A DNA stretch of 64,000 bases. Source: Gerris lacustris. Lineage: Eukaryota > Arthropoda > Insecta > Hemiptera > Gerridae. This document shows positions 16,861-60,952 of this stretch, in pieces. Position 1 is the stretch's first letter, and the number at the start of each line of letters is the position of its first letter. The notes beneath the pieces are model-generated. The model ran no database searches and was not told the DNA's origin. It was given only the letters and a program-made list of their open reading frames with translations. A program made the translations under genes and the position numbers. The stretch spans positions 136,591,787 to 136,655,786 of the forward strand of contig OX578276.1 of the NCBI GenBank assembly GCA_951217055.1. The letters run 5' to 3'.

Positions 16861-16877
16861 TAATGTGCTAAATAACT

Positions 16878-26195: not shown

Positions 26196-26205
26196 TGAAA
26201 TAATA

Positions 26206-27255
26206 TATTTTTTCCGTGGTAGGCTGTGAAATAGTAACTTTAGAGCCTAAAAAACATAGCTAAAATCCATTTTTTCATAACGTGGACTTAAAAAATCTTT
26301 TTATTACTCCTAGCTGTAAAGAAAAAATCTTTTACGTCCTAGGCACTAAAAGATTTTTTCTTTACGGCGGGTAGTTGTCAAAACTTCCGTTAGTAGTGCT
26401 GCAGTCTTTGTAGAAATGCTTCTAGTACGATAAAAATTCGGTAGATGTCAATGCGTTTTGTTTATCTTTTCTTATAGTGTAACCTCATTTTAAGGTTTCT
26501 TTTTTTAAGTCTTAAGTATGTACTAATATTTGTTATTATTATATATTGATTAGTGATTAATATTTAATGTTTTTTCATTGTCTGCTACCTCGGAAAAAAT
26601 AGCATATGCTACGCGACTTTGAAGTGTTTTTTCTTTACCTTGGCAATATTTACTGTCTCGCTTCGCTCGACAGTAAATGTAATTGCCGCGGTAAAGAAAA
26701 AACTCACTTCACAGCCTTGTAACATAATATACTATTTTCCGTGATAGGCTATGAAATAGTAACTTTAGAGCCTAAAAAACATCGCTAAAATCCATTTTTT
26801 CATTACGTGGACTTAAAAATCTTTTCATTACTCCTAGCTGTAAAGAAAAAATCTTTTACGTCCTAGGAACTAAAAGATTTTTATTTTCCGGCGGGTAGTT
26901 GTCAAAACTTCCGTTAGGACCGCTGCAGTCTTTGAAATGCTTCTAGTACGGTTAAAATCCGCTAGATGTCAATGCGTTTTATTTATCTTTTCTTATAGTC
27001 TAACCTCTTTTTAAGGTTTCTTTTCTTAAGTCTTAAGTATGTACTAATATTTGTTATTATTATATATTGATTAGTGATTAATATTTAATGTTTTTTCATT
27101 GTCTGCTACCTCGGAAAAAATAGCATATGCTACGCGACTGTGAAGTGTTTTTTCTTTACCTTGGCAATATTTACTGTCTCGCTTCGCTCGACAGTAAATG
27201 TAATTGCCGCGGTAAAGAAAAAACTCACTTCACAGCCTAGTAACATAATATACTA
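26206..27255. mobile_element. tandem pair of 525-bp TIR elements
   Basis: Two direct copies (TAGGCTGTGAA at 26220, ATAGGCTATGAA at 26745; period 525). Each ends CTTCACAGCC, the inverse of its start. ATAATATA flanks the left end, the middle junction and the right end, as expected if the second copy shares an 8-bp-type target duplication. Each unit holds two strong hairpins: AAAGAAAAAATCTTTT..AAAAGATTTTTTCTTT and a TTTTTTCTTTACC..GGTAAAGAAAAAA arm pair enclosing TACTGTCTCGCTTCGCTCGACAGTA. The copies differ at few sites, so the duplication is fairly recent. Non-coding. Confidence 0.75.
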
Positions 27256-27329
27256 TTAAGAATATGTTTATACTTAAAACAATCGGTGAACACTCAGACA
27301 AACTTTCTTATATACGAGTTCATAATTAG

Positions 27330-27660
27330 CCCTAGGTACATTTAATTATTACTGAACATTATATCAAAATATATCATAAAAATAACTTCCCCTCAGCGGG
27401 GAAAATCGACCCGGCCTCTCGCCATCTGCGTTAAAAACTATTTTCTCAGGCACTAGATCTTTCCCAGGAAAACTGCTTTTATCGTTAGATTCGTATATAA
27501 ATTTACAGAATTTAAGAATTCTTTAATCAAAATCGTCCGAACCGTTTTTGAGATTTTTTACGTTAATTCAGAGTATTTGCAGGGTAGCGCCCCCAAATTT
27601 GGAGCTAAAATTCATTTCACTCGACTTCACCTGGGAGGTTATGATTATGAACATATAAGT
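27330..27660. repeat. dispersed repeat with CACCCGGCCTCTC motif, copy 2
   Basis: Colinear with 5700-6010, including GACCCGGCCTCTCG, TTTCCCAGGAAAACTGCTT and CCCCCAAATTTGGAGCTAAAAT. The plus frame at 27577-27804 is a translation of the repeat and its flank. Confidence 0.55.
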
Positions 27661-31948: not shown

Positions 31949-31962
31949 TAATAGCATATTAT
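31949..31962. repeat. left copy of 14-bp target-site duplication
   Basis: TAATAGCATATTAT, identical to 52567-52580. It directly abuts the first array base (31963). Confidence 0.8.
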
Positions 31963-32011
31963 AAATTTAAATCAAATTATAATTATTATTAACTACGGGA
32001 AACAGACAGTG

Positions 32012-32016
32012 AAAAA
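32012..32016 (-). terminator. candidate Pol III terminator (T5), repeated in all units
   Basis: On the minus strand TTTTT lies 5 nt after the last base of the tRNA-like core (GGAGTGTATTTTTC). It recurs every 348 bp, in the inverted unit and in the 9.3-kb relative. Confidence 0.65.
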
Positions 32017-32020
32017 TACA

Positions 32021-32094
32021 CTCCTGTGCCGGGATTTGAACCACGGGCCTCTATATTTCCAGTATAGCGCTCTTCCATCTAAGCTACGCAGGAG
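32021..32094 (-). tRNA. tRNA-like gene, array copy 1 (type copy; anticodon-position GGA)
   Basis: Fold (minus strand): acceptor TCCTGCG/CACAGGA with one C-A mismatch; D arm GCTT-AGATGGAA-GAGC; anticodon arm CTATA-CTGGAAA-TATAG (U33, GGA, A37); 5-nt variable region AGGCC; T arm CGTGG-TTCAAAT-CCCGG with two mismatches. GGA would read Ser UCC/UCU, but Ser tRNAs need a long variable arm, so canonical charging is doubtful. A perfect 10-bp helix outside the core (32008-32017 with 32099-32108) extends the acceptor stem. A tRNA gene finder may report this as tRNA-Ser(GGA) or as a pseudogene. I judge it a tRNA-derived mobile sequence with intact Pol III signals. Confidence 0.65.
32032..32086 (-). promoter_or_regulatory. 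internal Pol III promoter: A box and B box
   Basis: Minus strand: A box TAGCTTAGATGG at 32075-32086 and B box GGTTCAAATCC at 32032-32042; the B box matches the GGTTCRANNCC consensus exactly. Both recur at +348n. Of the changes I noted within the 58 cores, none falls in the B box. Confidence 0.75.
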
Positions 32095-35000
32095 AATGAT
32101 TTTTCACTACCGTAATCGATAACTAGTCCCGAATCCAAGCTTTCAATATTCATATACATTTAGACAGTCAATATTTATGACATTAGAACTAAATCAAGAA
32201 TTAACGCTTATAATTATAAAGTACTCAATTAGTACCTATACCTTGTACAATCAATTCGAAATTCAATTTTTAAGTTATTGGTAGTTTTCATACTACGGAA
32301 AGTTAAATTTTAATTTAAATCAAATTATAATTATTATTAACTACGGGAAACAGACAGTGAAAAATACACTCCTGTGCCGGGATTTGAACCACGGGCCTCT
32401 ATATTTCCAGTATAGCGCTCTTCCATCTAAGCTACGCAGGAGAATGATTTTTCACTACAGTAATCGATAACTAGTCCCGAATCCAAGCTTTCAATATTCA
32501 TATACATTTAGACAGTCAATATTTATGACATTAGAACTAAATCAAGAATTAACGCTTATAATTATAAAGTACTCAATTAGTACCTATACCTTGTACAATC
32601 AATTCGAAATTCAATTTTTAAGTTATTGGTAGTTTTCATACTACGGAAAGTTAAATTTTAATTTAAATCAAATTATAATTATTATTAACTACGGGAAACA
32701 GACAGTGAAAAATACACTCCTGTGCCGGGATTTGAACCACGGGCCTCTATATTTCCAGTATAGCGCTCTTCCATCTAAGCTACGCAGGAGAATGATTTTT
32801 CACTACCGTAATCGATAACTAGTCCCGAATCCAAGCTTTCAATATTCATATACATTTAGACAGTCAATATTTATGACATTAGAACTAAATCAAGAATTAA
32901 CGCTTATAATTATAAAGTACTCAATTAGTACCTATACCTTGTACAATCAATTCGAAATTCAATTTTTAAGTTATTGGTAGTTTTCATACTACGGAAAGTT
33001 AAATTTTAATTTAAATCAAATTATAATTATTATTAACTACGGGAAACAGACAGTGAAAAATACACTCCTGTGCCGGGATTTGAACCACGGGCCTCTATAT
33101 TTCCAGTATAGCGCTCTTCCATCTAAGCTACGCAGGAGAATGATTTTTCACTACCGTAATCGATAACTAGTCCCGAATCCAAGCTTTCAATATTCATATA
33201 CATTTAGACAGTCAATATTTATGACATTAGAACTAAATCAAGAATTAACGCTTATAATTATAAAGTACTCAATTAGTACCTATACCTTGTACAATCAATT
33301 CGAAATTCAATTTTTAAGTTATTGGTAGTTTTCATACTACGGAAAGTTAAATTTTAATTTAAATCAAATTATAATTATTATTAACTACGGGAAACAGACA
33401 GTGAAAAATACACTCCTGTGCCGGGATTTGAACCACGGGCCTCTATATTTCCAGTATAGCGCTCTTCCATCTAAGCTACGCAGGAGAATGATTTTTCACT
33501 ACCGTAATCGATAACTAGTCCCGAATCCAAGCTTTCAATATTCATATACATTTAGACAGTCAATATTTATGACATTAGAACTAAATCAAGAATTAACGCT
33601 TATAATTATAAAGTACTCAATTAGTACCTATACCTTGTACAATCAATTCGAAATTCAATTTTTAAGTTATTGGTAGTTTTCATACTACGGAAAGTTAAAT
33701 TTTAATTTAAATCAAATTATAATTATTATTAACTACGGGAAACAGACAGTGAAAAATACACTCCTGTGCCGGGATTTGAACCACGGGCCTCTATATTTCC
33801 AGTATAGCGCTCTTCCATCTAAGCTACGCAGGAGAATGATTTTTCACTACCGTAATCGATAACTAGTCCCGAATCCAAGCTTTCAATATTCATATACATT
33901 TAGACAGTCAATATTTATGACATTAGAACTAAATCAAGAATTAACGCTTATAATTATAAAGTACTCAATTAGTACCTATACCTTGTACAATCAATTCGAA
34001 ATTCAATTTTTAAGTTATTGGTAGTTTTCATACTACGGAAAGTTAAATTTTAATTTAAATCAAATTATAATTATTATTAACTACGGGAAACAGACAGTGA
34101 AAAATACACTCCTGTGCCGGGATTTGAACCACGGGCCTCTATATTTCCAGTATAGCGCTCTTCCATCTAAGCTACGCAGGAGAATGATTTTTCACTACCG
34201 TAATCGATAACTAGTCCCGAATCCAAGCTTTCAATATTCATATACATTTAGACAGTCAATATTTATGACATTAGAACTAAATCAAGAATTAACGCATATA
34301 ATTATAAAGTACTCAATTAGTACCTATACCTTGTACAATCAATTCGAAATTCAATTTTTAAGTTATTGGTAGTTTTCATACTACGGAAAGTTAAATTTTA
34401 ATTTAAATCAAATTATAATTATTATTAACTACGGGAAACAGACAGTGAAAAATACACTCCTGTGCCGGGATTTGAACCACGGGCCTCTATATTTCCAGTA
34501 TAGCGCTCTTCCATCTAAGCTACGCAGGAGAATGATTTTTCACTACCGTAATCGATAACTAGTCCCGAATCCAAGCTTTCAATATTCATATACATTTAGA
34601 CAGTCAATATTTATGACATTAGAACTAAATCAAGAATTAACGCTTATAATTATAAAGTACTCAATTAGTACCTATACCTTGTACAATCAATTCGAAATTC
34701 AATTTTTAAGTTATTGGTAGTTTTCATACTACGGAAAGTTAAATTTTAATTTAAATCAAATTATAATTATTATTAACTACGGGAAACAGACAGTGAAAAA
34801 TACACTCCTGTGCCGGGATTTGAACCACGGGCCTCTATATTTCCAGTATAGCGCTCTTCCATCTAAGCTACGCAGGAGAATGATTTTTCACTACCGTAAT
34901 CGATAACTAGTCCCGAATCCAAGCTTTCAATATTCATATACATTTAGACAGTCAATATTTATAACATTAGAACTAAATCAAGAATTAACGCTTATAATTA

Positions 35001-38000
35001 TAAAGTACTCAATTAGTACCTATACCTTGTACAATCAATTCGAAATTCAATTTTTAAGTTATTGGTAGTTTTCATACTACGGAAAGTTAAATTTTAATTT
35101 AAATCAAATTATAATTATTATTAACTACGGGAAACAGACAGTGAAAAATACACTCCTGTGCCGGGATTTGAACCACGGGCCTCTATATTTCCAGTATAGC
35201 GCTCTTCCATCTAAGCTACGCAGGAGAATGATTTTTCACTACCGTAATCGATAACTAGTCCCGAATCCAAGCTTTCAATATTCATATACATTTAGACAGT
35301 CAATATTTATGACATTAGAACTAAATCAAGAATTAACGCTTATAATTATAAAGTACTCAATTAGTACCTATACCTTGTACAATCAATTCGAAATTCAATT
35401 TTTAAGTTATTGGTAGTTTTCATACTACGGAAAGTTAAATTTTAATTTAAATCAAATTATAATTATTATTAACTACGGGAAACAGACAGTGAAAAATACA
35501 CTCCTGTGCCGGGATTTGAACCACGGGCCTCTATATTTCCAGTATAGCGCTCTTCCATCTAAGCTACGCAGGAGAATGATTTTTCACTACCGTAATCGAT
35601 AACTAGTCCCGAATCCAAGCTTTCAATATTCATATACATTTAGACAGTCAATATTTATGACATTAGAACTAAATCAAGAATTAACGCTTATAATTATAAA
35701 GTACTCAATTAGTACCTATACCTTGTACAATCAATTCGAAATTCAATTTTTAAGTTATTGGTAGTTTTCATACTACGGAAAGTTAAATTTTAATTTAAAT
35801 CAAATTATAATTATTATTAACTACGGGAAACAGACAGTGAAAAATACACTCCTGTGCCGGGATTTGAACCACGGGCCTCTATATTTCCAGTATAGCGCTC
35901 TTCCATCTAAGCTACGCAGGAGAATGATTTTTCACTACCGTAATCGATAACTAGTCCCGAATCCAAGCTTTCAATATTCATATACATTTAGACAGTCAAT
36001 ATTTATGACATTAGAACTAAATCAAGAATTAACGCATATAATTATAAAGTACTCAATTAGTACCTATACCTTGTACAATCAATTCGAAATTCAATTTTTA
36101 AGTTATTGGTAGTTTTTATACTACGGAAAGTTAAATTTTAATTTAAATCAAATTATAATTATTATTAACTACGGGAAACAGACAGTGAAAAATACACTCC
36201 TGTGCCGGGATTTGAACCACGGGCCTCTATATTTCCAGTATAGCGCTCTTCCATCTAAGCTACGCAGGAGAATGATTTTTCACTACCGTAATCGATAACT
36301 AGTCCCGAATCCAAGCTTTCAATATTCATATACATTTAGACAGTCAATATTTATGACATTAGAACTAAATCAAGAATTAACGCTTATAATTATAAAGTAC
36401 TCAATTAGTACCTATACCTTGTACAATCAATTCGAAATTCAATTTTTAAGTTATTGGTAGTTTTCATACTACGGAAAGTTAAATTTTAATTTAAATCAAA
36501 TTATAATTATTATTAACTACGGGAAACAGACAGTGAAAAATACACTCCTGTGCCGGGATTTGAACCACGGGCCTCTATATTTCCAGTATAGCGCTCTTCC
36601 ATCTAAGCTACGCAGGAGAATGATTTTTCACTACCGTAATCGATAACTAGTCCCGAATCCAAGCTTTCAATATTCATATACATTTAGACAGTCAATATTT
36701 ATGACATTAGAACTAAATCAAGAATTAACGCATATAATTATAAAGTACTCAATTAGTACCTATACCTTGTACAATCAATTCGAAATTCAATTTTTAAGTT
36801 ATTGGTAGTTTTCATACTACGGAAAGTTAAATTTTAATTTAAATCAAATTATAATTATTATTAACTACGGGAAACAGACAGTGAAAAATACACTCCTGTG
36901 CCGGGATTTGAACCACGGGCCTCTATATTTCCAGTATAGCGCTCTTCCATCTAAGCTACGCAGGAGAATGATTTTTCACTACCGTAATCGATAACTAGTC
37001 CCGAATCCAAGCTTTCAATATTCATATACATTTAGACAGTCAATATTTATGACATTAGAACTAAATCAAGAATTAACGCATATAATTATAAAGTACTCAA
37101 TTAGTACCTATACCTTGTACAATCAATTCGAAATTCAATTTTTAAGTTATTGGTAGTTTTCATACTACGGAAAGTTAAATTTTAATTTAAATCAAATTAT
37201 AATTATTATTAACTACGGGAAACAGACAGTGAAAAATACACTCCTGTGCCGGGATTTGAACCACGGGCCTCTATATTTCCAGTATAGCGCTCTTCCATCT
37301 AAGCTACGCAGGAGAATGATTTTTCACTACCGTAATCGATAACTAGTCCCGAATCCAAGCTTTCAATATTCATATACATTTAGACAGTCAATATTTATGA
37401 CATTAGAACTAAATCAAGAATTAACGCTTATAATTATAAAGTACTCAATTAGTACCTATACCTTGTACAATCAATTCGAAATTCAATTTTTAAGTTATTG
37501 GTAGTTTTCATACTACGGAAAGTTAAATTTTAATTTAAATCAAATTATAATTATTATTAACTACGGGAAACAGACAGTGAAAAATACACTCCTGTGCCGG
37601 GATTTGAACCACGGGCCTCTATATTTCCAGTATAGCGCTCTTCCATCTAAGCTACGCAGGAGAATGATTTTTCACTACCGTAATCGATAACTAGTCCCGA
37701 ATCCAAGCTTTCAATATTCATATACATTTAGACAGTCAATATTTATGACATTAGAACTAAATCAAGAATTAACGCTTATAATTATAAAGTACTCAATTAG
37801 TACCTATACCTTGTACAATCAATTCGAAATTCAATTTTTAAGTTATTGGTAGTTTTCATACTACGGAAAGTTAAATTTTAATTTAAATCAAATTATAATT
37901 ATTATTAACTACGGGAAACAGACAGTGAAAAATACACTCCTGTGCCGGGATTTGAACCACGGGCCTCTATATTTCCAGTATAGCGCTCTTCCATCTAAGC

Positions 38001-41000
38001 TACGCAGGAGAATGATTTTTCACTACCGTAATCGATAACTAGTCCCGAATCCAAGCTTTCAATATTCATATACATTTAGACAGTCAATATTTATGACATT
38101 AGAACTAAATCAAGAATTAACGCTTATAATTATAAAGTACTCAATTAGTACCTATACCTTGTACAATCAATTCGAAATTCAATTTTTAAGTTATTGGTAG
38201 TTTTCATACTACGGAAAGTTAAATTTTAATTTAAATCAAATTATAATTATTATTAACTACGGGAAACAGACAGTGAAAAATACACTCCTGTGCCGGGATT
38301 TGAACCACGGGCCTCTATATTTCCAGTATAGCGCTCTTCCATCTAAGCTACGCAGGAGAATGATTTTTCACTACCGTAATCGATAACTAGTCCCGAATCC
38401 AAGCTTTCAATATTCATATACATTTAGACAGTCAATATTTATGACATTAGAACTAAATCAAGAATTAACGCTTATAATTATAAAGTACTCAATTAGTACC
38501 TATACCTTGTACAATCAATTCGAAATTCAATTTTTAAGTTATTGGTAGTTTTCATACTACGGAAAGTTAAATTTTAATTTAAATCAAATTATAATTATTA
38601 TTAACTACGGGAAACAGACAGTGAAAAATACACTCCTGTGCCGGGATTTGAACCACGGGCCTCTATATTTCCAGTATAGCGCTCTTCCATCTAAGCTACG
38701 CAGGAGAATGATTTTTCACTACCGTAATCGATAACTAGTCCCGAATCCAAGCTTTCAATATTCATATACATTTAGACAGTCAATATTTATGACATTAGAA
38801 CTAAATCAAGAATTAACGCATATAATTATAAAGTACTCAATTAGTACCTATACCTTGTACAATCAATTCGAAATTCAATTTTTAAGTTATTGGTAGTTTT
38901 CATACTACGGAAAGTTAAATTTTAATTTAAATCAAATTATAATTATTATTAACTACGGGAAACAGACAGTGAAAAATACACTCCTGTGCCGGGATTTGAA
39001 CCACGGGCCTCTATATTTCCAGTATAGCGCTCTTCCATCTAAGCTACGCAGGAGAATGATTTTTCACTACCGTAATCGATAACTAGTCCCGAATCCAAGC
39101 TTTCAATATTCATATACATTTAGACAGTCAATATTTATGACATTAGAACTAAATCAAGAATTAACGCTTATAATTATAAAGTACTCAATTAGTACCTATA
39201 CCTTGTACAATCAATTCGAAATTCAATTTTTAAGTTATTGGTAGTTTTCATACTACGGAAAGTTAAATTTTAATTTAAATCAAATTATAATTATTATTAA
39301 CTACGGGAAACAGACAGTGAAAAATACACTCCTGTGCCGGGATTTGAACCACGGGCCTCTATATTTCCAGTATAGCGCTCTTCCATCTAAGCTACGCAGG
39401 AGAATGATTTTTCACTACCGTAATCGATAACTAGTCCCGAATCCAAGCTTTCAATATTCATATACATTTAGACAGTCAATATTTATGACATTAGAACTAA
39501 ATCAAGAATTAACGCATATAATTATAAAGTACTCAATTAGTACCTATACCTTGTACAATCAATTCGAAATTCAATTTTTAAGTTATTGGTAGTTTTCATA
39601 CTACGGAAAGTTAAATTTTAATTTAAATCAAATTATAATTATTATTAACTACGGGAAACAGACAGTGAAAAATACACTCCTGTGCCGGGATTTGAACCAC
39701 GGGCCTCTATATTTCCAGTATAGCGCTCTTCCATCTAAGCTACGCAGGAGAATGATTTTTCACTACCGTAATCGATAACTAGTCCCGAATCCAAGCTTTC
39801 AATATTCATATACATTTAGACAGTCAATATTTATGACATTAGAACTAAATCAAGAATTAACGCTTATAATTATAAAGTACTCAATTAGTACCTATACCTT
39901 GTACAATCAATTCGAAATTCAATTTTTAAGTTATTGGTAGTTTTCATACTACGGAAAGTTAAATTTTAATTTAAATCAAATTATAATTATTATTAACTAC
40001 GGGAAACAGACAGTGAAAAATACACTCCTGTGCCGGGATTTGAACCACGGGCCTCTATATTTCCAGTATAGCGCTCTTCCATCTAAGCTACGCAGGAGAA
40101 TGATTTTTCACTACCGTAATCGATAACTAGTCCCGAATCCAAGCTTTCAATATTCATATACATTTAGACAGTCAATATTTATGACATTAGAACTAAATCA
40201 AGAATTAACGCTTATAATTATAAAGTACTCAATTAGTACCTATACCTTGTACAATCAATTCGAAATTCAATTTTTAAGTTATTGGTAGTTTTCATACTAC
40301 GGAAAGTTAAATTTTAATTTAAATCAAATTACAATTATTATTAACTACGGGAAACAGACAGTGAAAAATACACTCCTGTGCCGGGATTTGAACCACGGGC
40401 CTCTATATTTCCAGTATAGCGCTCTTCCATCTAAGCTACGCAGGAGAATGATTTTTCACTACCGTAATCGATAACTAGTCCCGAATCCAAGCTTTCAATA
40501 TTCATATACATTTAGACAGTCAATATTTATGACATTAGAACTAAATCAAGAATTAACGCATATAATTATAAAGTACTCAATTAGTACCTATACCTTGTAC
40601 AATCAATTCGAAATTCAATTTTTAAGTTATTGGTAGTTTTCATACTACGGAAAGTTAAATTTTAATTTAAATCAAATTATAATTATTATTAACTACGGGA
40701 AACAGACAGTGAAAAATACACTCCTGTGCCGGGATTTGAACCACGGGCCTCTATATTTCCAGTATAGCGCTCTTCCATCTAAGCTACGCAGGAGAATGAT
40801 TTTTCACTACCGTAATCGATAACTAGTCCCGAATCCAAGCTTTCAATATTCATATACATTTAGACAGTCAATATTTATAACATTAGAACTAAATCAAGAA
40901 TTAACGCTTATAATTATAAAGTACTCAATTAGTACCTATACCTTGTACAATCAATTCGAAATTCAATTTTTAAGTTATTGGTAGTTTTCATACTACGGAA

Positions 41001-44000
41001 AGTTAAATTTTAATTTAAATCAAATTATAATTATTATTAACTACGGGAAACAGACAGTGAAAAATACACTCCTGTGCCGGGATTTGAACCACGGGCCTCT
41101 ATATTTCCAGTATAGCGCTCTTCCATCTAAGCTACGCAGGAGAATGATTTTTCACTACCGTAATCGATAACTAGTCCCGAATCCAAGCTTTCAATATTCA
41201 TATACATTTAGACAGTCAATATTTATGACATTAGAACTAAATCAAGAATTAACGCTTATAATTATAAAGTACTCAATTAGTACCTATACCTTGTACAATC
41301 AATTCGAAATTCAATTTTTAAGTTATTGGTAGTTTTCATACTACGGAAAGTTAAATTTTAATTTAAATCAAATTATAATTATTATTAACTACGGGAAACA
41401 GACAGTGAAAAATACACTCCTGTGCCGGGATTTGAACCACGGGCCTCTATATTTCCAGTATAGCGCTCTTCCATCTAAGCTACGCAGGAGAATGATTTTT
41501 CACTACCGTAATCGATAACTAGTCCCGAATCCAAGCTTTCAATATTCATATACATTTAGACAGTCAATATTTATGACATTAGAACTAAATCAAGAATTAA
41601 CGCATATAATTATAAAGTACTCAATTAGTACCTATACCTTGTACAATCAATTCGAAATTCAATTTTTAAGTTATTGGTAGTTTTCATACTACGGAAAGTT
41701 AAATTTTAATTTAAATCAAATTATAATTATTATTAACTACGGGAAACAGACAGTGAAAAATACACTCCTGTGCCGGGATTTGAACCACGGGCCTCTATAT
41801 TTCCAGTATAGCGCTCTTCCATCTAAGCTACGCAGGAGAATGATTTTTCACTACCGTAATCGATAACTAGTCCCGAATCCAAGCTTTCAATATTCATATA
41901 CATTTAGACAGTCAATATTTATGACATTAGAACTAAATCAAGAATTAACGCTTATAATTATAAAGTACTCAATTAGTACCTATACCTTGTACAATCAATT
42001 CGAAATTCAATTTTTAAGTTATTGGTAGTTTTCATACTACGGAAAGTTAAATTTTAATTTAAATCAAATTATAATTATTATTAACTACGGGAAACAGACA
42101 GTGAAAAATACACTCCTGTGCCGGGATTTGAACCACGGGCCTCTATATTTCCAGTATAGCGCTCTTCCATCTAAGCTACGCAGGAGAATGATTTTTCACT
42201 ACCGTAATCGATAACTAGTCCCGAATCCAAGCTTTCAATATTCATATACATTTAGACAGTCAATATTTATGACATTAGAACTAAATCAAGAATTAACGCT
42301 TATAATTATAAAGTACTCAATTAGTACCTATACCTTGTACAATCAATTCGAAATTCAATTTTTAAGTTATTGGTAGTTTTCATACTACGGAAAGTTAAAT
42401 TTTAATTTAAATCAAATTACAATTATTATTAACTACGGGAAACAGACAGTGAAAAATACACTCCTGTGCCGGGATTTGAACCACGGGCCTCTATATTTCC
42501 AGTATAGCGCTCTTCCATCTAAGCTACGCAGGAGAATGATTTTTCACTACCGTAATCGATAACTAGTCCCGAATCCAAGCTTTCAATATTCATATACATT
42601 TAGACAGTCAATATTTATGACATTAGAACTAAATCAAGAATTAACGCATATAATTATAAAGTACTCAATTAGTACCTATACCTTGTACAATCAATTCGAA
42701 ATTCAATTTTTAAGTTATTGGTAGTTTTCATACTACGGAAAGTTAAATTTTAATTTAAATCAAATTATAATTATTATTAACTACGGGAAACAGACAGTGA
42801 AAAATACACTCCTGTGCCGGGATTTGAACCACGGGCCTCTATATTTCCAGTATAGCGCTCTTCCATCTAAGCTACGCAGGAGAATGATTTTTCACTACCG
42901 TAATCGATAACTAGTCCCGAATCCAAGCTTTCAATATTCATATACATTTAGACAGTCAATATTTATGACATTAGAACTAAATCAAGAATTAACGCTTATA
43001 ATTATAAAGTACTCAATTAGTACCTATACCTTGTACAATCAATTCGAAATTCAATTTTTAAGTTATTGGTAGTTTTCATACTACGGAAAGTTAAATTTTA
43101 ATTTAAATCAAATTATAATTATTATTAACTACGGGAAACAGACAGTGAAAAATACACTCCTGTGCCGGGATTTGAACCACGGGCCTCTATATTTCCAGTA
43201 TAGCGCTCTTCCATCTAAGCTACGCAGGAGAATGATTTTGCACTACCGTAATCGATAACTAGTCCCGAATCCAAGCTTTCAATATTCATATACATTTAGA
43301 CAGTCAATATTTATGACATTAGAACTAAATCAAGAATTAACGCTTATAATTATAAAGTACTCAATTAGTACCTATACCTTGTACAATCAATTCGAAATTC
43401 AATTTTTAAGTTATTGGTAGTTTTCATACTACGGAAAGTTAAATTTTAATTTAAATCAAATTATAATTATTATTAACTACGGGAAACAGACAGTGAAAAA
43501 TACACTCCTGTGCCGGGATTTGAACCACGGGCCTCTATATTTCCAGTATAGCGCTCTTCCATCTAAGCTACGCAGGAGAATGATTTTTCACTACCGTAAT
43601 CGATAACTAGTCCCGAATCCAAGCTTTGAATATTCATATACATTTAGACAGTCAATATTTATGACATTAGAACTAAATCAAGAATTAACGCTTATAATTA
43701 TAAAGTACTCAATTAGTACCTATACCTTGTACAATCAATTCGAAATTCAATTTTTAAGTTATTGGTAGTTTTCATACTACGGAAAGTTAAATTTTAATTT
43801 AAATCAAATTATAATTATTATTAACTACGGGAAACAGACAGTGAAAAATACACTCCTGTGCCGGGATTTGAACCACGGGCCTCTATATTTCCAGTATAGC
43901 GCTCTTCCATCTAAGCTACGCAGGAGAATGATTTTTCACTACCGTAATCGATAACTAGTCCCGAATCCAAGCTTTCAATATTCATATACATTTAGACAGT

Positions 44001-44896
44001 CAATATTTATGACATTAGAACTAAATCAAGAATTAACGCTTATAATTATAAAGTACTCAATTAGTACCTATACCTTGTACAATCAATTCGAAATTCAATT
44101 TTTAAGTTATTGGTAGTTTTCATACTACGGAAAGTTAAATTTTAATTTAAATCAAATTATAATTATTATTAACTACGGGAAACAGACAGTGAAAAATACA
44201 CTCCTGTGCCGGGATTTGAACCACGGGCCTCTATATTTCCAGTATAGCGCTCTTCCATCTAAGCTACGCAGGAGAATGATTTTTCACTACCGTAATCGAT
44301 AACTAGTCCCGAATCCAAGCTTTCAATATTCATATACATTTAGACAGTCAATATTTATGACATTAGAACTAAATCAAGAATTAACGCTTATAATTATAAA
44401 GTACTCAATTAGTACCTATACCTTGTACAATCAATTCGAAATTCAATTTTTAAGTTATTGGTAGTTTTCATACTACGGAAAGTTAAATTTTAATTTAAAT
44501 CAAATTATAATTATTATTAACTACGGGAAACAGACAGTGAAAAATACACTCCTGTGCCGGGATTTGAACCACGGGCCTCTATATTTCCAGTATAGCGCTC
44601 TTCCATCTAAGCTACGCAGGAGAATGATTTTTCACTACCGTAATCGATAACTAGTCCCGAATCCAAGCTTTCAATATTCATATACATTTAGACAGTCAAT
44701 ATTTATGACATTAGAACTAAATCAAGAATTAACGCTTATAATTATAAAGTACTCAATTAGTACCTATACCTTGTACAATCAATTCGAAATTCAATTTTTA
44801 AGTTATTGGTAGTTTTCATACTACGGAAAGTTAAATTTTAATTTAAATCAAATTATAATTATTATTAACTACGGGAAACAGACAGTGAAAAATACA

Positions 44897-44970
44897 CTCC
44901 TGTGCCGGGATTTGAACCACGGGCCTCTATTTTTCCAGTATAGCGCTCTTCCATCTAAGCTACGCAGGAG
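44897..44970 (-). tRNA. tRNA-like array copy 38, anticodon-stem variant
   Basis: A-to-T at 44931 (plus strand) changes base 39 of the fold and breaks the pair closing the anticodon loop. First of four carriers spaced two units apart. Confidence 0.6.
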
Positions 44971-45592
44971 AATGATTTTTCACTACCGTAATCGATAACT
45001 AGTCCCGAATCCAAGCTTTCAATATTCATATACATTTAGACAGTCAATATTTATGACATTAGAACTAAATCAAGAATTAACGCTTATAATTATAAAGTAC
45101 TCAATTAGTACCTATACCTTGTACAATCAATTCGAAATTCAATTTTTAAGTTATTGGTAGTTTTCATACTACGGAAAGTTAAATTTTAATTTAAATCAAA
45201 TTATAATTATTATTAACTACGGGAAACAGACAGTGAAAAATACACTCCTGTGCCGGGATTTGAACCACGGGCCTCTATATTTCCAGTATAGCGCTCTTCC
45301 ATCTAAGCTACGCAGGAGAATGATTTTTCACTACCGTAATCGATAACTAGTCCCGAATCCAAGCTTTCAATATTCATATACATTTAGACAGTCAATATTT
45401 ATGACATTAGAACTAAATCAAGAATTAACGCTTATAATTATAAAGTACTCAATTAGTACCTATACCTTGTACAATCAATTCGAAATTCAATTTTTAAGTT
45501 ATTGGTAGTTTTCATACTACGGAAAGTTAAATTTTAATTTAAATCAAATTATAATTATTATTAACTACGGGAAACAGACAGTGAAAAATACA

Positions 45593-45666
45593 CTCCTGTG
45601 CCGGGATTTGAACCACGGGCCTCTATTTTTCCTGTATAGCGCTCTTCCATCTAAGCTACGCAGGAG
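45593..45666 (-). tRNA. tRNA-like array copy 40, anticodon-stem and U33 variant
   Basis: Carries the same change (45627) and also A-to-T at 45633, which replaces the otherwise invariant U33 of the anticodon loop. This copy could not act as a normal decoding tRNA. Confidence 0.6.
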
Positions 45667-46288
45667 AATGATTTTTCACTACCGTAATCGATAACTAGTC
45701 CCGAATCCAAGCTTTCAATATTCATATACATTTAGACAGTCAATATTTATGACATTAGAACTAAATCAAGAATTAACGCTTATAATTATAAAGTACTCAA
45801 TTAGTACCTATACCTTGTACAATCAATTCGAAATTCAATTTTTAAGTTATTGGTAGTTTTCATACTACGGAAAGTTAAATTTTAATTTAAATCAAATTAT
45901 AATTATTATTAACTACGGGAAACAGACAGTGAAAAATACACTCCTGTGCCGGGATTTGAACCACGGGCCTCTATATTTCCAGTATAGCGCTCTTCCATCT
46001 AAGCTACGCAGGAGAATGATTTTTCACTACCGTAATCGATAACTAGTCCCGAATCCAAGCTTTCAATATTCATATACATTTAGACAGTCAATATTTATGA
46101 CATTAGAACTAAATCAAGAATTAACGCTTATAATTATAAAGTACTCAATTAGTACCTATACCTTGTACAATCAATTCGAAATTCAATTTTTAAGTTATTG
46201 GTAGTTTTCATACTACGGAAAGTTAAATTTTAATTTAAATCAAATTATAATTATTATTAACTACGGGAAACAGACAGTGAAAAATACA

Positions 46289-46362
46289 CTCCTGTGCCGG
46301 GATTTGAACCACGGGCCTCTATTTTTCCAGTATAGCGCTCTTCCATCTAAGCTACGCAGGAG
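46289..46362 (-). tRNA. tRNA-like array copy 42, anticodon-stem variant
   Basis: Same base-39 change at 46323, 696 bp from copy 40's. Confidence 0.6.
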
Positions 46363-46984
46363 AATGATTTTTCACTACCGTAATCGATAACTAGTCCCGA
46401 ATCCAAGCTTTCAATATTCATATACATTTAGACAGTCAATATTTATGACATTAGAACTAAATCAAGAATTAACGCTTATAATTATAAAGTACTCAATTAG
46501 TACCTATACCTTGTACAATCAATTCGAAATTCAATTTTTAAGTTATTGGTAGTTTTCATACTACGGAAAGTTAAATTTTAATTTAAATCAAATTATAATT
46601 ATTATTAACTACGGGAAACAGACAGTGAAAAATACACTCCTGTGCCGGGATTTGAACCACGGGCCTCTATATTTCCAGTATAGCGCTCTTCCATCTAAGC
46701 TACGCAGGAGAATGATTTTTCACTACCGTAATCGATAACTAGTCCCGAATCCAAGCTTTCAATATTCATATACATTTAGACAGTCAATATTTATGACATT
46801 AGAACTAAATCAAGAATTAACGCTTATAATTATAAAGTACTCAATTAGTACCTATACCTTGTACAATCAATTCGAAATTCAATTTTTAAGTTATTGGTAG
46901 TTTTCATACTACGGAAAGTTAAATTTTAATTTAAATCAAATTATAATTATTATTAACTACGGGAAACAGACAGTGAAAAATACA

Positions 46985-47058
46985 CTCCTGTGCCGGGATT
47001 TGAACCACGGGCCTCTATTTTTCCAGTATAGCGCTCTTCCATCTAAGCTACGCAGGAG
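46985..47058 (-). tRNA. tRNA-like array copy 44, anticodon-stem variant
   Basis: Same base-39 change at 47019, 696 bp from copy 42's; last of the alternating run. Confidence 0.6.
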
Positions 47059-50000
47059 AATGATTTTTCACTACCGTAATCGATAACTAGTCCCGAATCC
47101 AAGCTTTCAATATTCATATACATTTAGACAGTCAATATTTATGACATTAGAACTAAATCAAGAATTAACGCTTATAATTATAAAGTACTCAATTAGTACC
47201 TATACCTTGTACAATCAATTCGAAATTCAATTTTTAAGTTATTGGTAGTTTTCATACTACGGAAAGTTAAATTTTAATTTAAATCAAATTATAATTATTA
47301 TTAACTACGGGAAACAGACAGTGAAAAATACACTCCTGTGCCGGGATTTGAACCACGGGCCTCTATATTTCCAGTATAGCGCTCTTCCATCTAAGCTACG
47401 CAGGAGAATGATTTTTCACTACCGTAATCGATAACTAGTCCCGAATCCAAGCTTTCAATATTCATATACATTTAGACAGTCAATATTTATGACATTAGAA
47501 CTAAATCAAGAATTAACGCATATAATTATAAAGTACTCAATTAGTACCTATACCTTGTACAATCAATTCGAAATTCAATTTTTAAGTTATTGGTAGTTTT
47601 CATACTACGGAAAGTTAAATTTTAATTTAAATCAAATTATAATTATTATTAACTACGGGAAACAGACAGTGAAAAATACACTCCTGTGCCGGGATTTGAA
47701 CCACGGGCCTCTATATTTCCAGTATAGCGCTCTTCCATCTAAGCTACGCAGGAGAATGATTTTTCACTACCGTAATCGATAACTAGTCCCGAATCCAAGC
47801 TTTCAATATTCATATACATTTAGACAGTCAATATTTATGACATTAGAACTAAATCAAGAATTAACGCTTATAATTATAAAGTACTCAATTAGTACCTATA
47901 CCTTGTACAATCAATTCGAAATTCAATTTTTAAGTTATTGGTAGTTTTCATACTACGGAAAGTTAAATTTTAATTTAAATCAAATTATAATTATTATTAA
48001 CTACGGGAAACAGACAGTGAAAAATACACTCCTGTGCCGGGATTTGAACCACGGGCCTCTATATTTCCAGTATAGCGCTCTTCCATCTAAGCTACGCAGG
48101 AGAATGATTTTTCACTACCGTAATCGATAACTAGTCCCGAATCCAAGCTTTCAATATTCATATACATTTAGACAGTCAATATTTATGACATTAGAACTAA
48201 ATCAAGAATTAACGCTTATAATTATAAAGTACTCAATTAGTACCTATACCTTGTACAATCAATTCGAAATTCAATTTTTAAGTTATTGGTAGTTTTCATA
48301 CTACGGAAAGTTAAATTTTAATTTAAATCAAATTATAATTATTATTAACTACGGGAAACAGACAGTGAAAAATACACTCCTGTGCCGGGATTTGAACCAC
48401 GGGCCTCTATATTTCCAGTATAGCGCTCTTCCATCTAAGCTACGCAGGAGAATGATTTTTCACTACCGTAATCGATAACTAGTCCCGAATCCAAGCTTTC
48501 AATATTCATATACATTTAGACAGTCAATATTTATGACATTAGAACTAAATCAAGAATTAACGCTTATAATTATAAAGTACTCAATTAGTACCTATACCTT
48601 GTACAATCAATTCGAAATTCAATTTTTAAGTTATTGGTAGTTTTCATACTACGGAAAGTTAAATTTTAATTTAAATCAAATTATAATTATTATTAACTAC
48701 GGGAAACAGACAGTGAAAAATACACTCCTGTGCCGGGATTTGAACCACGGGCCTCTATATTTCCAGTATAGCGCTCTTCCATCTAAGCTACGCAGGAGAA
48801 TGATTTTTCACTACCGTAATCGATAACTAGTCCCGAATCCAAGCTTTCAATATTCATATACATTTAGACAGTCAATATTTATGACATTAGAACTAAATCA
48901 AGAATTAACGCTTATAATTATAAAGTACTCAATTAGTACCTATACCTTGTACAATCAATTCGAAATTCAATTTTTAAGTTATTGGTAGTTTTCATACTAC
49001 GGAAAGTTAAATTTTAATTTAAATCAAATTATAATTATTATTAACTACGGGAAACAGACAGTGAAAAATACACTCCTGTGCCGGGATTTGAACCACGGGC
49101 CTCTATATTTCCAGTATAGCGCTCTTCCATCTAAGCTACGCAGGAGAATGATTTTTCACTACCGTAATCGATAACTAGTCCCGAATCCAAGCTTTCAATA
49201 TTCATATACATTTAGACAGTCAATATTTATGACATTAGAACTAAATCAAGAATTAACGCTTATAATTATAAAGTACTCAATTAGTACCTATACCTTGTAC
49301 AATCAATTCGAAATTCAATTTTTAAGTTATTGGTAGTTTTCATACTACGGAAAGTTAAATTTTAATTTAAATCAAATTATAATTATTATTAACTACGGGA
49401 AACAGACAGTGAAAAATACACTCCTGTGCCGGGATTTGAACCACGGGCCTCTATATTTCCAGTATAGCGCTCTTCCATCTAAGCTACGCAGGAGAATGAT
49501 TTTTCACTACCGTAATCGATAACTAGTCCCGAATCCAAGCTTTCAATATTCATATACATTTAGACAGTCAATATTTATGACATTAGAACTAAATCAAGAA
49601 TTAACGCTTATAATTATAAAGTACTCAATTAGTACCTATACCTTGTACAATCAATTCGAAATTCAATTTTTAAGTTATTGGTAGTTTTCATACTACGGAA
49701 AGTTAAATTTTAATTTAAATCAAATTATAATTATTATTAACTACGGGAAACAGACAGTGAAAAATACACTCCTGTGCCGGGATTTGAACCACGGGCCTCT
49801 ATATTTCCAGTATAGCGCTCTTCCATCTAAGCTACGCAGGAGAATGATTTTTCACTACCGTAATCGATAACTAGTCCCGAATCCAAGCTTTCAATATTCA
49901 TATACATTTAGACAGTCAATATTTATGACATTAGAACTAAATCAAGAATTAACGCATATAATTATAAAGTACTCAATTAGTACCTATACCTTGTACAATC

Positions 50001-51508
50001 AATTCGAAATTCAATTTTTAAGTTATTGGTAGTTTTCATACTACGGAAAGTTAAATTTTAATTTAAATCAAATTATAATTATTATTAACTACGGGAAACA
50101 GACAGTGAAAAATACACTCCTGTGCCGGGATTTGAACCACGGGCCTCTATATTTCCAGTATAGCGCTCTTCCATCTAAGCTACGCAGGAGAATGATTTTT
50201 CACTACCGTAATCGATAACTAGTCCCGAATCCAAGCTTTCAATATTCATATACATTTAGACAGTCAATATTTATGACATTAGAACTAAATCAAGAATTAA
50301 CGCTTATAATTATAAAGTACTCAATTAGTACCTATACCTTGTACAATCAATTCGAAATTCAATTTTTAAGTTATTGGTAGTTTTTATACTACGGAAAGTT
50401 AAATTTTAATTTAAATCAAATTATAATTATTATTAACTACGGGAAACAGACAGTGAAAAATACACTCCTGTGCCGGGATTTGAACCACGGGCCTCTATAT
50501 TTCCAGTATAGCGCTCTTCCATCTAAGCTACGCAGGAGAATGATTTTTCACTACCGTAATCGATAACTAGTCCCGAATCCAAGCTTTCAATATTTATATA
50601 CATTTAGACAGTCAATATTTATGACATTAGAACTAAATCAAGAATTAACGCATATAATTATAAAGTACTCAATTAGTACCTATACCTTGTACAATCAATT
50701 CGAAATTCAATTTTTAAGTTATTGGTAGTTTTCATACTACGGAAAGTTAAATTTTAATTTAAATCAAATTATAATTATTATTAACTACGGGAAACAGACA
50801 GTGAAAAATACACTCCTGTGCCGGGATTTGAACCACGGGCCTCTATATTTCCAGTATAGCGCTCTTCCATCTAAGCTACGCAGGAGAATGATTTTTCACT
50901 ACCGTAATCGATAACTAGTCCCGAATCCAAGCTTTCAATATTCATATACATTTAGACAGTCAATATTTATGACATTAGAACTAAATCAAGAATTAACGCT
51001 TATAATTATAAAGTACTCAATTAGTACCTATACCTTGTACAATCAATTCGAAATTCAATTTTTAAGTTATTGGTAGTTTTCATACTACGGAAAGTTAAAT
51101 TTTAATTTAAATCAAATTATAATTATTATTAACTACGGGAAACAGACAGTGAAAAATACACTCCTGTGCCGGGATTTGAACCACGGGCCTCTATATTTCC
51201 AGTATAGCGCTCTTCCATCTAAGCTACGCAGGAGAATGATTTTTCACTACCGTAATCGATAACTAGTCCCGAATCCAAGCTTTCAATATGCATATACATT
51301 TAGACAGTCAATATTTATGACATTAGAACTAAATCAAGAATTAACGCTTATAATTATAAAGTACTCAATTAGTACCTATACCTTGTACAATCAATTCGAA
51401 ATTCAATTTTTAAGTTATTGGTAGTTTTCATACTACGGAAAGTTAAATTTTAATTTAAATCAAATTATAATTATTATTAACTACGGGAAACAGACAGTGA
51501 AAAATACA

Positions 51509-51582
51509 CTCCTGTGCCGGGATTTGAACCACGGGCCTCTATTTTTCCAGTATAGCGCTCTTCCATCTAAGCTACGCAGGAG
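51509..51582 (-). tRNA. tRNA-like array copy 57, isolated anticodon-stem variant
   Basis: Same base-39 change at 51543, 13 units away from copy 44, so the variant has moved within the array or arose twice. Confidence 0.6.
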
Positions 51583-51856
51583 AATGATTTTTCACTACCG
51601 TAATCGATAACTAGTCCCGAATCCAAGCTTTCAATATTCATATACATTTAGACAGTCAATATTTATGACATTAGAACTAAATCAAGAATTAACGCTTATA
51701 ATTATAAAGTACTCAATTAGTACCTATACCTTGTACAATCAATTCGAAATTCAATTTTTAAGTTATTGGTAGTTTTCATACTACGGAAAGTTAAATTTTA
51801 ATTTAAATCAAATTATAATTATTATTAACTACGGGAAACAGACAGTGAAAAATACA

Positions 51857-51930
51857 CTCCTGTGCCGGGATTTGAACCACGGGCCTCTATATTTCCAGTA
51901 TAGCGCTCTTCCATCTAAGCTACGCAGGAG
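51857..51930 (-). tRNA. tRNA-like array copy 58 (last direct copy)
   Basis: Final minus-strand core, identical to the type copy. The array continues to 52203, within the next unit just before its core would begin. Confidence 0.65.
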
Positions 51931-52203
51931 AATGATTTTTCACTACCGTAATCGATAACTAGTCCCGAATCCAAGCTTTCAATATTCATATACATTTAGA
52001 CAGTCAATATTTATGACATTAGAACTAAATCAAGAATTAACGCTTATAATTATAAAGTACTCAATTAGTACCTATACCTTGTACAATCAATTCGAAATTC
52101 AATTTTTAAGTTATTGGTAGTTTTCATACTACGGAAAGTTAAATTTTAATTTAAATCAAATTATAATTATTATTAACTACGGGAAACAGACAGTGAAAAA
52201 TAC

Positions 52204-52566
52204 AATAACTTAAAAATTGAATTTCGAATTGATTGTACAAGGTATAGGTACTAATTGAGTACTTTATAATTATAAGCGTTAATTCTTGATTTAGTTCTAA
52301 TGTCATAAATATTGACTGTCTAAATGTATATGAATATTGAAAGCTTGGATTCGGGACTAGTTATCGATTACGGTAGTGAAAAATCATTCTCCTGCGTAGC
52401 TTAGATGGAAGAGCGCTATACTGGAAATATAGAGGCCCGTGGTTCAAATCCCGGCACAGGAGTGTATTTTTCACTGTCTGTTTCCCGTAGTTAATAATAA
52501 TTATAATTTGATTTAAATTAAAATTTAACTTTCCGTAGTATGAAAACTACCAATAACTTAAAAATT
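52204..52566 (+). mobile_element. inverted terminal unit with 15-bp terminal redundancy
   Basis: A complete unit in the opposite direction. It begins AATAACTTAAAAATT (52204-52218) and ends with the same 15 bases (52552-52566), directly against the right target duplication. In between: GATTGTACAAGG, AGCTTGGATTCGGGACTAG, the tRNA-like core, GTATTTTTCACTG, and CCGTAGTATGAAAACTACC. It carries the ancestral T allele at the CGCTTATAA site. Confidence 0.85.
52389..52462 (+). tRNA. tRNA-like gene in the inverted unit
   Basis: Identical in sequence to the type copy but on the plus strand; T5 follows at ~52468. Together with copy 58 it forms a divergent pair whose transcripts would run away from each other. 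Confidence 0.65.
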
Positions 52567-52580
52567 TAATAGCATATTAT
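52567..52580. repeat. right copy of 14-bp target-site duplication
   Basis: TAATAGCATATTAT, perfect match to 31949-31962; followed by unrelated TACACAACCGGCATC. Confidence 0.8.
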
Positions 52581-52621
52581 TACACAACCGGCATCCCTTT
52601 AATATATAAAGGGATTTATTA

Positions 52622-53048
52622 GTTCACAATTTGTGTGAGTAAAAAACAAGACACTAAGGTATGTATCATATGTGGCTCATAGGAACTTTTTCAACATCAG
52701 GCAAGACGTCGTTAAGATGTTGGCTCGGCATTGCGCCATATTCCGCATCGTTTTATCGCGTTCGACTAATCAGGGGCCTAACGATGCCCACCCAAGCAAG
52801 TATGGCGGTATAAGAGCACCCTCGTCTCTGATAAGCCCTATATCTGATCTTCTGGATCTAGTATAGGTCCAGAGTTGGGTGGGCATCGTTGAGCCTCTGA
52901 TGAGTCGGACGCAACGAAACGATGCAGGACATGGCGCAATGCTCAGCCAACATCTTAAAGACGACATGTCTAATGTTAGAACAGTTCCAATGAGCCACGT
53001 TTACGTGACACATTCCTTGGCGTCTCTCACTCACACATAATTGTGTAG
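52622..53048. mobile_element. foldback element with ~180-bp arms and hammerhead-like core
   Basis: Arms ~52625-52800 and ~52874-53047 are imperfect inverted copies: CACAATTTGTGTGAG at one end and CTCACACATAATTGTG at the other, with TGGCTCAT/ATGAGCCA, AAGATGTTGGCT/AGCCAACATCTT and CGATGCCCACCCAA/TTGGGTGGGCATCG inside. The ~70-bp centre includes CTGATCTTCTGGATCTAG. GC-richer than the surroundings. Overlapping frames at 52672-52866 and 52770-52967 are byproducts of the palindrome. Confidence 0.8.
52883..52925 (+). ncRNA. hammerhead-ribozyme-like motif in foldback arm
   Basis: GCATCG-TT (52883-52890), CTGATGA (52897-52903), a 12-nt segment able to form a short stem II, GAAA (52916-52919), then CGATGC (52920-52925), which pairs with the upstream GCATCG as stem III. 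Core elements are in hammerhead order with a GUU-type cleavage triplet. But only GAGCCT lies between the cleavage position and CTGATGA, too short for a stem I hairpin. The other arm has the same motif on the minus strand with a damaged core (CTGATTA, GATAAAA). Activity is unproven. Confidence 0.3.
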
Positions 53049-53049
53049 C

Positions 53050-54000
53050 TTATTGCAGAGTGCAAACACGGTATCATATTAATGATCGGATTTATTATTG
53101 TAAAACAATAACTACTATAAGTAATATTATAACTTAACTATATGCCAGTTTAGATATTAGGTAGAGGCAATCACCGAGTTCATTATTGTGCCACACGTTG
53201 TTGTAAATAAATAAAAACAATAAATAAATAAAATTGTACATTTGTTCCAAATATCTTGTAATAATTTGGAGCAGTGCCTTTGATTTATACCTGAATGTGC
53301 TGAAAGGCTCTGTAAACTTTGTTAAGGATACATTACGTAACTCCATTTGTATTGAGACTTTAACTGATAGAGGCGTTAGGAGGGAACAGGAGGTCTCCTT
53401 TGGTCAGGATATATGGAACAAATATTTAATACAATATGGTTTAATTATAGTTTTGTACTACTTGTAGGTACATATATAATAAGTCAAGTTTTATGTAGTT
53501 ATTTGTGTCTGATTTTATCGTTATGTTAAATCTGTAACTAATAATATTATACGAATATAATCATACCACTGTTAAAATTAAGTTCAGAAGTCTTATAACT
53601 AGTATATAATTCATATTACTTTTCCTTAAAAGTTACTAACTTGTATAAACTATATAATTTGAAAATCACTTCACCGTATTTCTTTATAACGAATATTTAA
53701 AATACTTAAAATTTACAGTTACATAAATTAGAATTTCTACAGTTGTTAATCGCATTAGTACATAGAATGGAGCATGCCGTAGTAGTCACAAAACACACAC
53801 ACACATTTATTGTTCAGAATTTGAATCAGTGTAACATGAAGTTTGTGAAATTCAGTTTAAGTATTTAGATGGGTTGATTATAACTCAAATCTGACATTTC
53901 GCTGATATACGAGATGTATAAGCAACGTTCAGTATTAAGCCCGTACCGGATTATAAGCTTAACATTCACGACATTTCCCTTTAATCTCTATCTTCCTGTA
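53050..54000. other. AT-rich non-coding stretch
   Basis: Overlapping short frames on both strands (53134-53467) have no recognisable features. ACACACACACACA near 53793 is a short CA repeat. Confidence 0.4.
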
Positions 54001-58652: not shown

Positions 58653-58704
58653 TAAATCAAATTATAATTATTATTAACTACGGGAAACAGACAGAGAAAA
58701 ATAC

Positions 58705-58743
58705 ACTCCAGCGCCGGGATTTGAACCACGGGCCTCTATATTT
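58705..58743 (-). tRNA. tRNA-like 3'-half fragment
   Basis: Minus-strand T arm and 3' acceptor (GGTTCAAATCCCGGCGCTGG) with part of the anticodon arm; the 5' half is missing. Confidence 0.5.

Positions 58744-60921: not shown

Positions 60922-60952
<31 letters not shown>

Follow-up and report, generated by a model that had tools for sequence, protein, structure and literature searches.

A 20-kb tandem array in Gerris lacustris is very probably one arm of an inserted tRNA-bearing mobile element

Introduction

Animal retrozymes are dispersed and abundant low-GC units of ~170-400 nt that occur as dimers to 62-mers and have, when present, target-site duplications of >4 bp (Cervera & de la Pena 2020, PMC7229834). 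In the model of the same authors, a circular RNA is turned into tandem complementary DNA (cDNA), with Penelope-like enzymes as candidates for this step (PMC7229834). GIY-YIG is the endonuclease type of the Penelope-like elements (PMC3846280). The bdelloid Penelope copies have direct pseudo-long terminal repeats (pLTRs) in tandem, an adjacent inverted pLTR and a 31-bp tail that may be present at one inverted pLTR, and the published copies are flanked by duplications of 8-10 bp, with one copy that has none (PMC3846280). This paper describes an element that resembles both systems. It was found in a window of 64,000 bp from Gerris lacustris (assembly GCA_951217055.1, contig OX578276.1, positions 136,591,787 to 136,655,786), where 348-bp units, each with a tRNA-like fold, form a 20-kb tandem array. 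This array is almost certainly one arm of a single insertion of an abundant, gene-less, non-autonomous mobile element, here called the tRNA element.

The array as one insertion

The array lies between two copies of a 14-bp target-site duplication, TAATAGCATATTAT, located at 31949-31962 and 52567-52580 (both on the plus strand). These are the only two matches to this sequence in the window, with 0.00 expected. The long arm has 58.2 head-to-tail units on the minus strand (31964-52204) and is followed directly by a second arm on the plus strand (52205-52566), which is one inverted unit of the array haplotype; from 52208 on, 359/359 of its bases are equal to the array consensus. The inverted copy has a tRNA-like fold at 52390-52462 (plus strand, 55 bits by cmscan) with a GGA anticodon and a bulged U in the T stem, and a T5 run resembling a polymerase III (Pol III) terminator at 52467-52471 on the same strand. 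The outer ends of the two arms correspond to two AT-rich sites of the unit that are 47 nt apart, A (~u14) and B (~u315). The long arm is the B arm, with its outer end at u312 and its inner end at u256. The short arm is the A arm and ends at u11-15, an ambiguous position where a few bases fit the duplication as well. Since the array and the inverted copy lie together between the 14-bp duplications, they form a single insertion, and it is highly probable that the whole block is one target-primed retroelement insertion.

Tandem Repeats Finder (TRF) gives the array a period of 348 bp, 58.2 copies, 99% matches and 0% indels. All 58/58 full units are 348 bp long and represent 13 distinct sequences; 34/58 are identical to the array consensus, 19 have one substitution and 5 have two, which is a total of 29 substitutions. 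The distance from the first tRNA-like core (32021-32093, minus strand, cmscan) to the last (51857-51929, minus strand, cmscan) is 19,836 bases, or 57 x 348. Units are numbered in the tRNA sense from u1 = ACTTAAAAATTG, and the tRNA occupies u183-255 of 348. The minus strand of the array has a tRNA-like core in 58/58 units (40.8-55 bits with a cut-off of 29, cmscan), and ARAGORN finds a tRNA in 57/58 units, called tRNA-Ser(GGA). Read in the minus-strand sense, the A box is TAGCTTAGATGG and the B box is GGTTCAAATCC. Each unit also has one T5 run 4 nt beyond the tRNA fold, and this is the sole run of four or more T in the sense unit. The GC content of the unit is 31-32%. No open frame of at least 110 aa overlaps the array, so the unit codes for nothing of that size.

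The first-pass annotation of this DNA had described 58 indel-free copies of 348 bp with first and last cores 57 x 348 apart, few substitutions between units, and an A box, a B box and a T5 run in every unit. All of this is borne out by the measurements above, with the promoter boxes and the terminator in minus-strand sense. The extent that it gave is correct for the tandem block, but the feature continues as the inverted copy to 52566.

The family across the genome

An exact 27-mer of the unit (u283-309) has 5,549 + 5,339 = 10,888 matches in the 937-Mb genome. Among the first 100 of these places, neighbours on opposite strands less than 600 bp apart are arranged -+ in 25 cases and +- in 1, and the 10 same-strand neighbours are all 346-349 bp apart. 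A satellite would have large arrays only and no insertion signature; the first 100 places instead form 62 clusters over 6.4 Mb, and the copies have target-site duplications. Arms are present at other sites in the genome. The earlier view had set the array apart from ordinary satellites and ordinary tRNA clusters and had called its relatives dispersed; the relatives are indeed dispersed, the array is no ordinary satellite, and it is probably no ordinary tRNA cluster either. A 22-mer scan of IMG/VR gave 0 matches.

Insertions were compared in three samples. Sample A has 27 loci (2 in the window and 25 among the matches listed) and favours young copies; L006-L008 were left out, being the same place as L014. 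Sample B has 37 regions from the first 6.7 Mb of C1. Sample J was chosen by junction and has 22 loci of 30, the other 8 being duplicates on the other strand; it is excluded from the inner-end count. After unpaired segments had been set aside (5 in A, 14 in B and 4 in J), the samples contained 26, 34 and 23 two-armed insertions, for a total of 83, of which 82 are distinct (L029 in J is L068 in B). Head-to-head arms with one end at A and the other at B are present in 71/83 (21 in A, 29 in B and 21 in J). The other combinations are A/A in 0, B/B in 2 and another end in 10. Target-site duplications of at least 10 bp flank 60/83 of the insertions (21/26, 21/34 and 18/23), compared with 15/900 flank-swapped controls (2, 8 and 5 of 300 each), and are mostly 10-16 bp long.

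The A ends peak at u14-17 (44/75) and the B ends at u310-320, and both wander by several nt. This fits target ends that anneal to an AT-rich RNA and does not fit a fixed RNA 3' end. In L035 the arms end at u124 and u70 and a 13-bp duplication is still present, which argues that the template continues past A and B. A DNA transposon with inverted repeats was rejected, since the ends shift by several nt and the lengths of the duplications vary. Snap-back self-priming of one cDNA was also rejected as the general origin of the second arm; either arm can be the longer one and the outer ends differ by the 47-nt tail. Two loci have unusual structures. L062 has an unusually long flanking duplication, which is 36 bp and AT-rich. 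In L020, three insertions of the tRNA element lie in a row (842-3713) and two of them abut to within ~8 bp, a layout suggestive of insertion into or beside an older copy.

Arm lengths and haplotypes

The arms range from a few tens of bp (0.1 unit) through ~1.1, 1.4, 2.2, 3.5, 5.3, 8.9, 11.5 and 20-25 units to 58.2 units, and the long arm may be the A arm or the B arm. Samples A and B together have 36 arms of more than one unit; in sample B, 9/64 of the arms with an end at A or B are of this length. Arms of 1.4 units in small insertions with a single duplication (e.g. L005, L025 and L027) favour the copying of a multimeric or circular RNA over amplification of a gene in place. The clean signature is present in the window array (58 units), L016 (11.5 units) and L012 (8.9 units).

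Some private variants are fixed through one arm, such as T103C and A142G in L011 (25/25 units) and T103A and A104T in L016 (11/11 units). Others are common to both arms where both cover the site (A290G in L022, A224G in L026 and T258C in L017), and the first insertion of L020 has seven variant sites common to both arms. The 25 units of L011 have zero internal differences. Private variants that are fixed and shared between arms are expected from repeated copying of one small template, and the loci compared are found to have one main haplotype per insertion.

Inner ends of the arms

The inner ends, which correspond to the ends of the cDNA, are concentrated in the tRNA. In samples A and B, 25/120 are located exactly at u220 and 30/120 at u219-221, compared with 0.34 per position for an even distribution. 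The tRNA is 21% of the unit and has 70/120 of the inner ends. Position u220 is tRNA nt 38 and u209 is nt 27, which are directly 3' of A37 and G26. A genome-wide search for the pattern of the anticodon-loop junction gave 87 matches in 76 distinct places. The commonest junction (38/76) joins u220 to u210 via a 3-nt microhomology. In the 21 junctions of this pattern that are free of microhomology, 16/42 of the ends are at u220 and 11/42 at u209; since the pattern itself demands nearby ends, only the sharpness of the peaks within ~u206-220 is evidence.

Eukaryotic tRNAs often have modified bases at nt 37, 26, 58 and 20, which cause reverse transcriptases to stop or misread. Misreading, not stops, is described at m2,2G26, and m1A and i6A are among the modifications that leave a readout (PMC12140624). 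A cut in the RNA between nt 37 and 38 would explain the stop at nt 38 equally well. A plain structural stop is less likely, since reverse transcription arrives at both positions with the 3' strand of the anticodon stem already copied. Changes of A219 in L014, L022 and L028 were considered as proof of a modified A37 and were rejected; those in L014 and L022 are inside junction overlaps and that in L028 is at the end of a short arm.

The tRNA fold

One array unit was aligned to the tRNA model and gives a full cloverleaf in which one acceptor position is unpaired and the T stem has one bulged U. The fold had been called defective; with these two irregularities, the defect is milder than claimed. 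The score is 55 bits in spite of them, and a long variable arm is absent. Identity as tRNA-Ser needs a long variable arm.

Covariation was scored in 31 copies over u156-290 (alignment A1). The cloverleaf and its flanking helices have 26 double-change cells, compared with 12.3 +- 2.2 in shuffled alignments (0/500 as high) and 1-3 in slid ones. Counted by pairs with double changes, the result is less striking (6 against 4.4 in the shuffles, 79/500), and for the older subfamily A1 is one base off in the flanking helix. The bulged U is kept while a pair of the same stem swaps from C-G to G-C in three rows (L081, L091 and L093). As judged from these substitutions, the tRNA fold is maintained. The circular minimum-energy fold of the unit is unremarkable (z = -1.05). 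A genome search with RF00163 was silent everywhere, including the controls, and therefore has no bearing on hammerheads.

Candidate enzyme

The genome has 1,680 candidate GIY-YIG domains, of which 150 were scored, and some of these are in open frames of 845-900 aa. From the domain and the length of the frames, these appear to be Penelope-like. The GIY-YIG pairs within 10 kb of each other (n = 20) are arranged -+ in 16 cases, on the same strand in 4 and +- in 0. This outward-facing layout is that of the tRNA element and was counted in favour of a Penelope-like enzyme. In one pair the ends are 99.7% identical over 697 bp. It is likely that a Penelope-like enzyme did the copying. Same-strand pairs 3.4-3.5 kb apart are located at C10:27501292 and 27504677 and at C4:22384346 and 22387827. 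It is possible that they are tandem Penelope-type copies with long open frames.

Proposed mechanism and alternatives

The core that the sequences support is a duplicated target site, two head-to-head arms, outer ends at A and B and inner ends concentrated in the anticodon loop; we infer the circle, the transcription and the enzyme of the tRNA element. The favoured mechanism, which has a reasonable probability of being correct, is that a small 348-nt RNA, probably circular, is reverse transcribed in laps from both nicked strands of the target. Multi-unit loci would be the source of a 348-nt RNA with a tRNA fold, which would be circularised, possibly through a cut in the anticodon loop followed by joining by a tRNA ligase. 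The two strands of AT-rich target DNA would be nicked by an endonuclease at points ~10-16 bp apart, and of the two 3' ends one would anneal to the RNA at A and one at B. The reverse transcriptase would then copy a fraction of a lap or many laps. Copying would end chiefly 3' of tRNA nt 37 and more rarely 3' of nt 26, at modified bases or at a cut anticodon loop, and the two cDNA ends would be joined, often via a short microhomology. The 58-unit arm would be the product of long rolling-circle copying, to which unequal exchange perhaps added units later, and a Penelope-like element would be the most likely source of the enzyme.

An extension of this mechanism is more tentative and, on balance, doubtful. 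The host tRNA machinery, rather than a ribozyme, may make and mark the circle. The fold would give the promoter, the cleavage at nt 37/38 (the tRNA intron site) and the ligation, and modifications at 37, 26 and perhaps 58 and 20 would be recorded as cDNA stops. Unmodified templates would be copied for dozens of laps and would seed satellite-like arrays. That tRNA processing produces the circle is a bold but testable guess.

Several observations weigh against copying from a single circle by a Penelope-like enzyme. No duplication of at least 10 bp is present in 23/83 insertions. The clean signature is missing from three of the four longest arrays: in L009 (21.5 units) neither a second arm nor a duplication was found, L010 (20.6 units) has an end at u147 and no duplication, and L011 (24.9 units) is B/B with a 7-bp match only. 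Later truncation would explain these ends. Single-unit differences occur too, and A191G in L018 is in one arm only. In the window array, A68T (12/58) and T221A (5/58) recur in scattered units, which is not predicted by one circle copied once. Four of the five T221A carriers alternate (units 37, 39, 41 and 43; chance 0.0018) and point to later local duplication, and it is likely that some exchange or duplication took place inside this array after insertion. The inner ends at u171-182, just 5' of the tRNA (7/120), are where a Pol III transcript would start and therefore fit the ends of a linear RNA. The minor inner-end sites are nt 59 (3), nt 21 (3) and u232 (4); the first two fit modified 58 and 20 but are too few to be more than suggestive, and no modification accounts for u232. 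No ribozyme family was found at E <= 10 in the inverted copy or at E <= 5 in three array units, and no other circularising motif was found in the unit either. No secure common sequence was established between the unit and five Penelope-type 3' regions (623-701 bp). The 3' region of L101 has a 33-column AT-rich match to the unit, which was reached in 0/200 shuffles by blastn and in 5/200 by a longer local alignment.

The same target-primed retroelement may have copied a linear multi-unit read-through RNA of an existing array. Near-homogeneous arrays would give one haplotype per insertion as well, the u171-182 ends could be the 5' ends of transcripts, and run-off at u220 is expected if the RNA was cut between nt 37 and 38. 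However, an RNA of 58 units (20 kb) would have to stay intact through 58 T5 runs and 58 tRNA folds, templates of many lengths are needed to account for the arm lengths, and the wandering of the outer ends is unlike a defined RNA 3' end. A linear template is considered rather unlikely. Much the same holds for an insertion that originally had one or two units and reached 58 later by unequal exchange or slippage in the DNA. The alternating T221A units, the scattered shared variants and the other long arrays without clean ends (L009-L011) agree with later expansion, whereas the small insertions already have 1.1-5 units between the same ends (the 36 arms of more than one unit) and L011 has 25 units with no internal difference. 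It is improbable, on this evidence, that expansion in the DNA made the array.

The copy number is very unlikely to be an artefact of the assembly. The array is longer than many long reads, but its 13 distinct unit types are in a defined order, arrays of 20-25 units are present at other loci, including L011 with its private haplotype, and the anatomy of the insertion stands even if the number of units is wrong. Least probable of all is that co-oriented Pol III tRNA-like gene units, with predicted transcription, were amplified for their product. The A box, the B box, the T5 run and the covarying tRNA fold agree with it, but the target-site duplications, the inverted arm, the A/B ends and the ~10,900 copies of the 27-mer do not; transposition explains the block without any function of the product. 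The block had been read as a very recent amplification of co-oriented tRNA gene units. It is indeed young, but in place of an amplified gene block it is almost certainly a retroelement insertion with target-site duplications, whose relatives elsewhere in the genome have arms of 0.1-25 units.

If the copying of a circular RNA in laps is true, most of a 20-kb satellite-like array would have arisen in one step, by one insertion, and a small RNA could give rise directly to a satellite. The retrozyme idea, in which small RNA circles are transposition intermediates, would extend to an element without a ribozyme, and the stop sites of a retroelement reverse transcriptase along a tRNA would be on natural record in thousands of copies. 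With the A/B end rule, simple counts can test the two-primer model of Penelope-type insertion.

Other repeats in the window

The window also has an older, shorter insertion of the same family at 58640-58994, with a minus-strand piece at 58643-58743 and a plus-strand piece at 58770-58970. It is flanked by a 13-bp duplication, AAGAATATTAACA, at 58640-58652 and 58982-58994. This duplication was left unscored in the stricter automatic test, where the plus arm was shortened. An old single-orientation copy of the unit (84% identical) is located at 9119-9476 on the plus strand.

A different tandem repeat at 11683-12123 (2 x 220 bp) has a B-box-like stretch, GGGTTCGATTCCCC, and may be another small-RNA-derived element; an inverted piece related to it is located at 27337-27445. 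Right beside the insertion, at 52600-53060, is a long imperfect inverted repeat whose arms have AAGATGTTGGCT and AGCCAACATCTT, and this is perhaps another small mobile element. The remains of a BEL/Pao long terminal repeat (LTR) retrotransposon are at 14830-19300, with Peptidase_A17 and RVT_1 in one frame, DUF1759 in another and DUF5641 on the opposite strand. Further tandem repeats are located at 26200-27257 (2 x ~524 bp) and 60175-61929 (305-bp and 289-bp units).

Comparison with known systems

Short interspersed nuclear elements (SINEs) derived from tRNAs have tRNA-type promoter boxes, are non-autonomous and have target-site duplications; their tRNA head is 5', they have one orientation and they end in a 3' tail. 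The tRNA element shares the first three of these traits. Unlike such SINEs, it has its tRNA in the middle of the unit (u183-255) followed by T5, and it has head-to-head arms and tandem laps. Among the top results of the literature search, which left most subscription journals and preprints outside its range, no report was met of a tRNA-bearing tandem element with two-armed insertions.

The Helenus terminal-repeat retrotransposons in miniature (TRIMs) also have tRNA-derived sequence within a small non-autonomous element (PMC10886601). They are described as having LTRs, with 5-bp duplications in one family (PMC10886601), whereas the tRNA element has duplications of mostly 10-16 bp and no LTR layout. 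The mammalian tailless tRNA retropseudogenes are likewise inserts derived from tRNAs, have target-site duplications and are truncated within single-stranded regions (PMC5322556). They are short inserts attributed to LINE1, and no mention of laps or paired fixed ends was met in that source.

The anatomy of the insertions is like that of the Penelope-like elements (Arkhipova et al. 2013, PMC3846280), with an inverted terminal copy, tandems, short duplications and a tail on one end. The optional tail at one Penelope end matches the tRNA element, in which A is B plus 47 nt. The unit itself differs, as it is non-coding, bears a tRNA and has no frame for a reverse transcriptase and GIY-YIG. Since 348 bp is too short for such a frame, the tRNA element would be at most a non-autonomous passenger.

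With the animal retrozymes the tRNA element shares a tandem unit within 150-450 bp (348 bp), low GC content (31-32%) and duplications of >4 bp (PMC7229834). No description of two-armed inverted insertions of retrozymes was met in PMC7229834, and the word 'inverted' is absent from its main text. The type I hammerhead ribozyme that defines a retrozyme was not found in the searches of the unit, and the tRNA fold occupies its place. The best reading, by analogy, is that the element would work like an animal retrozyme in which the tRNA fold replaces the hammerhead.

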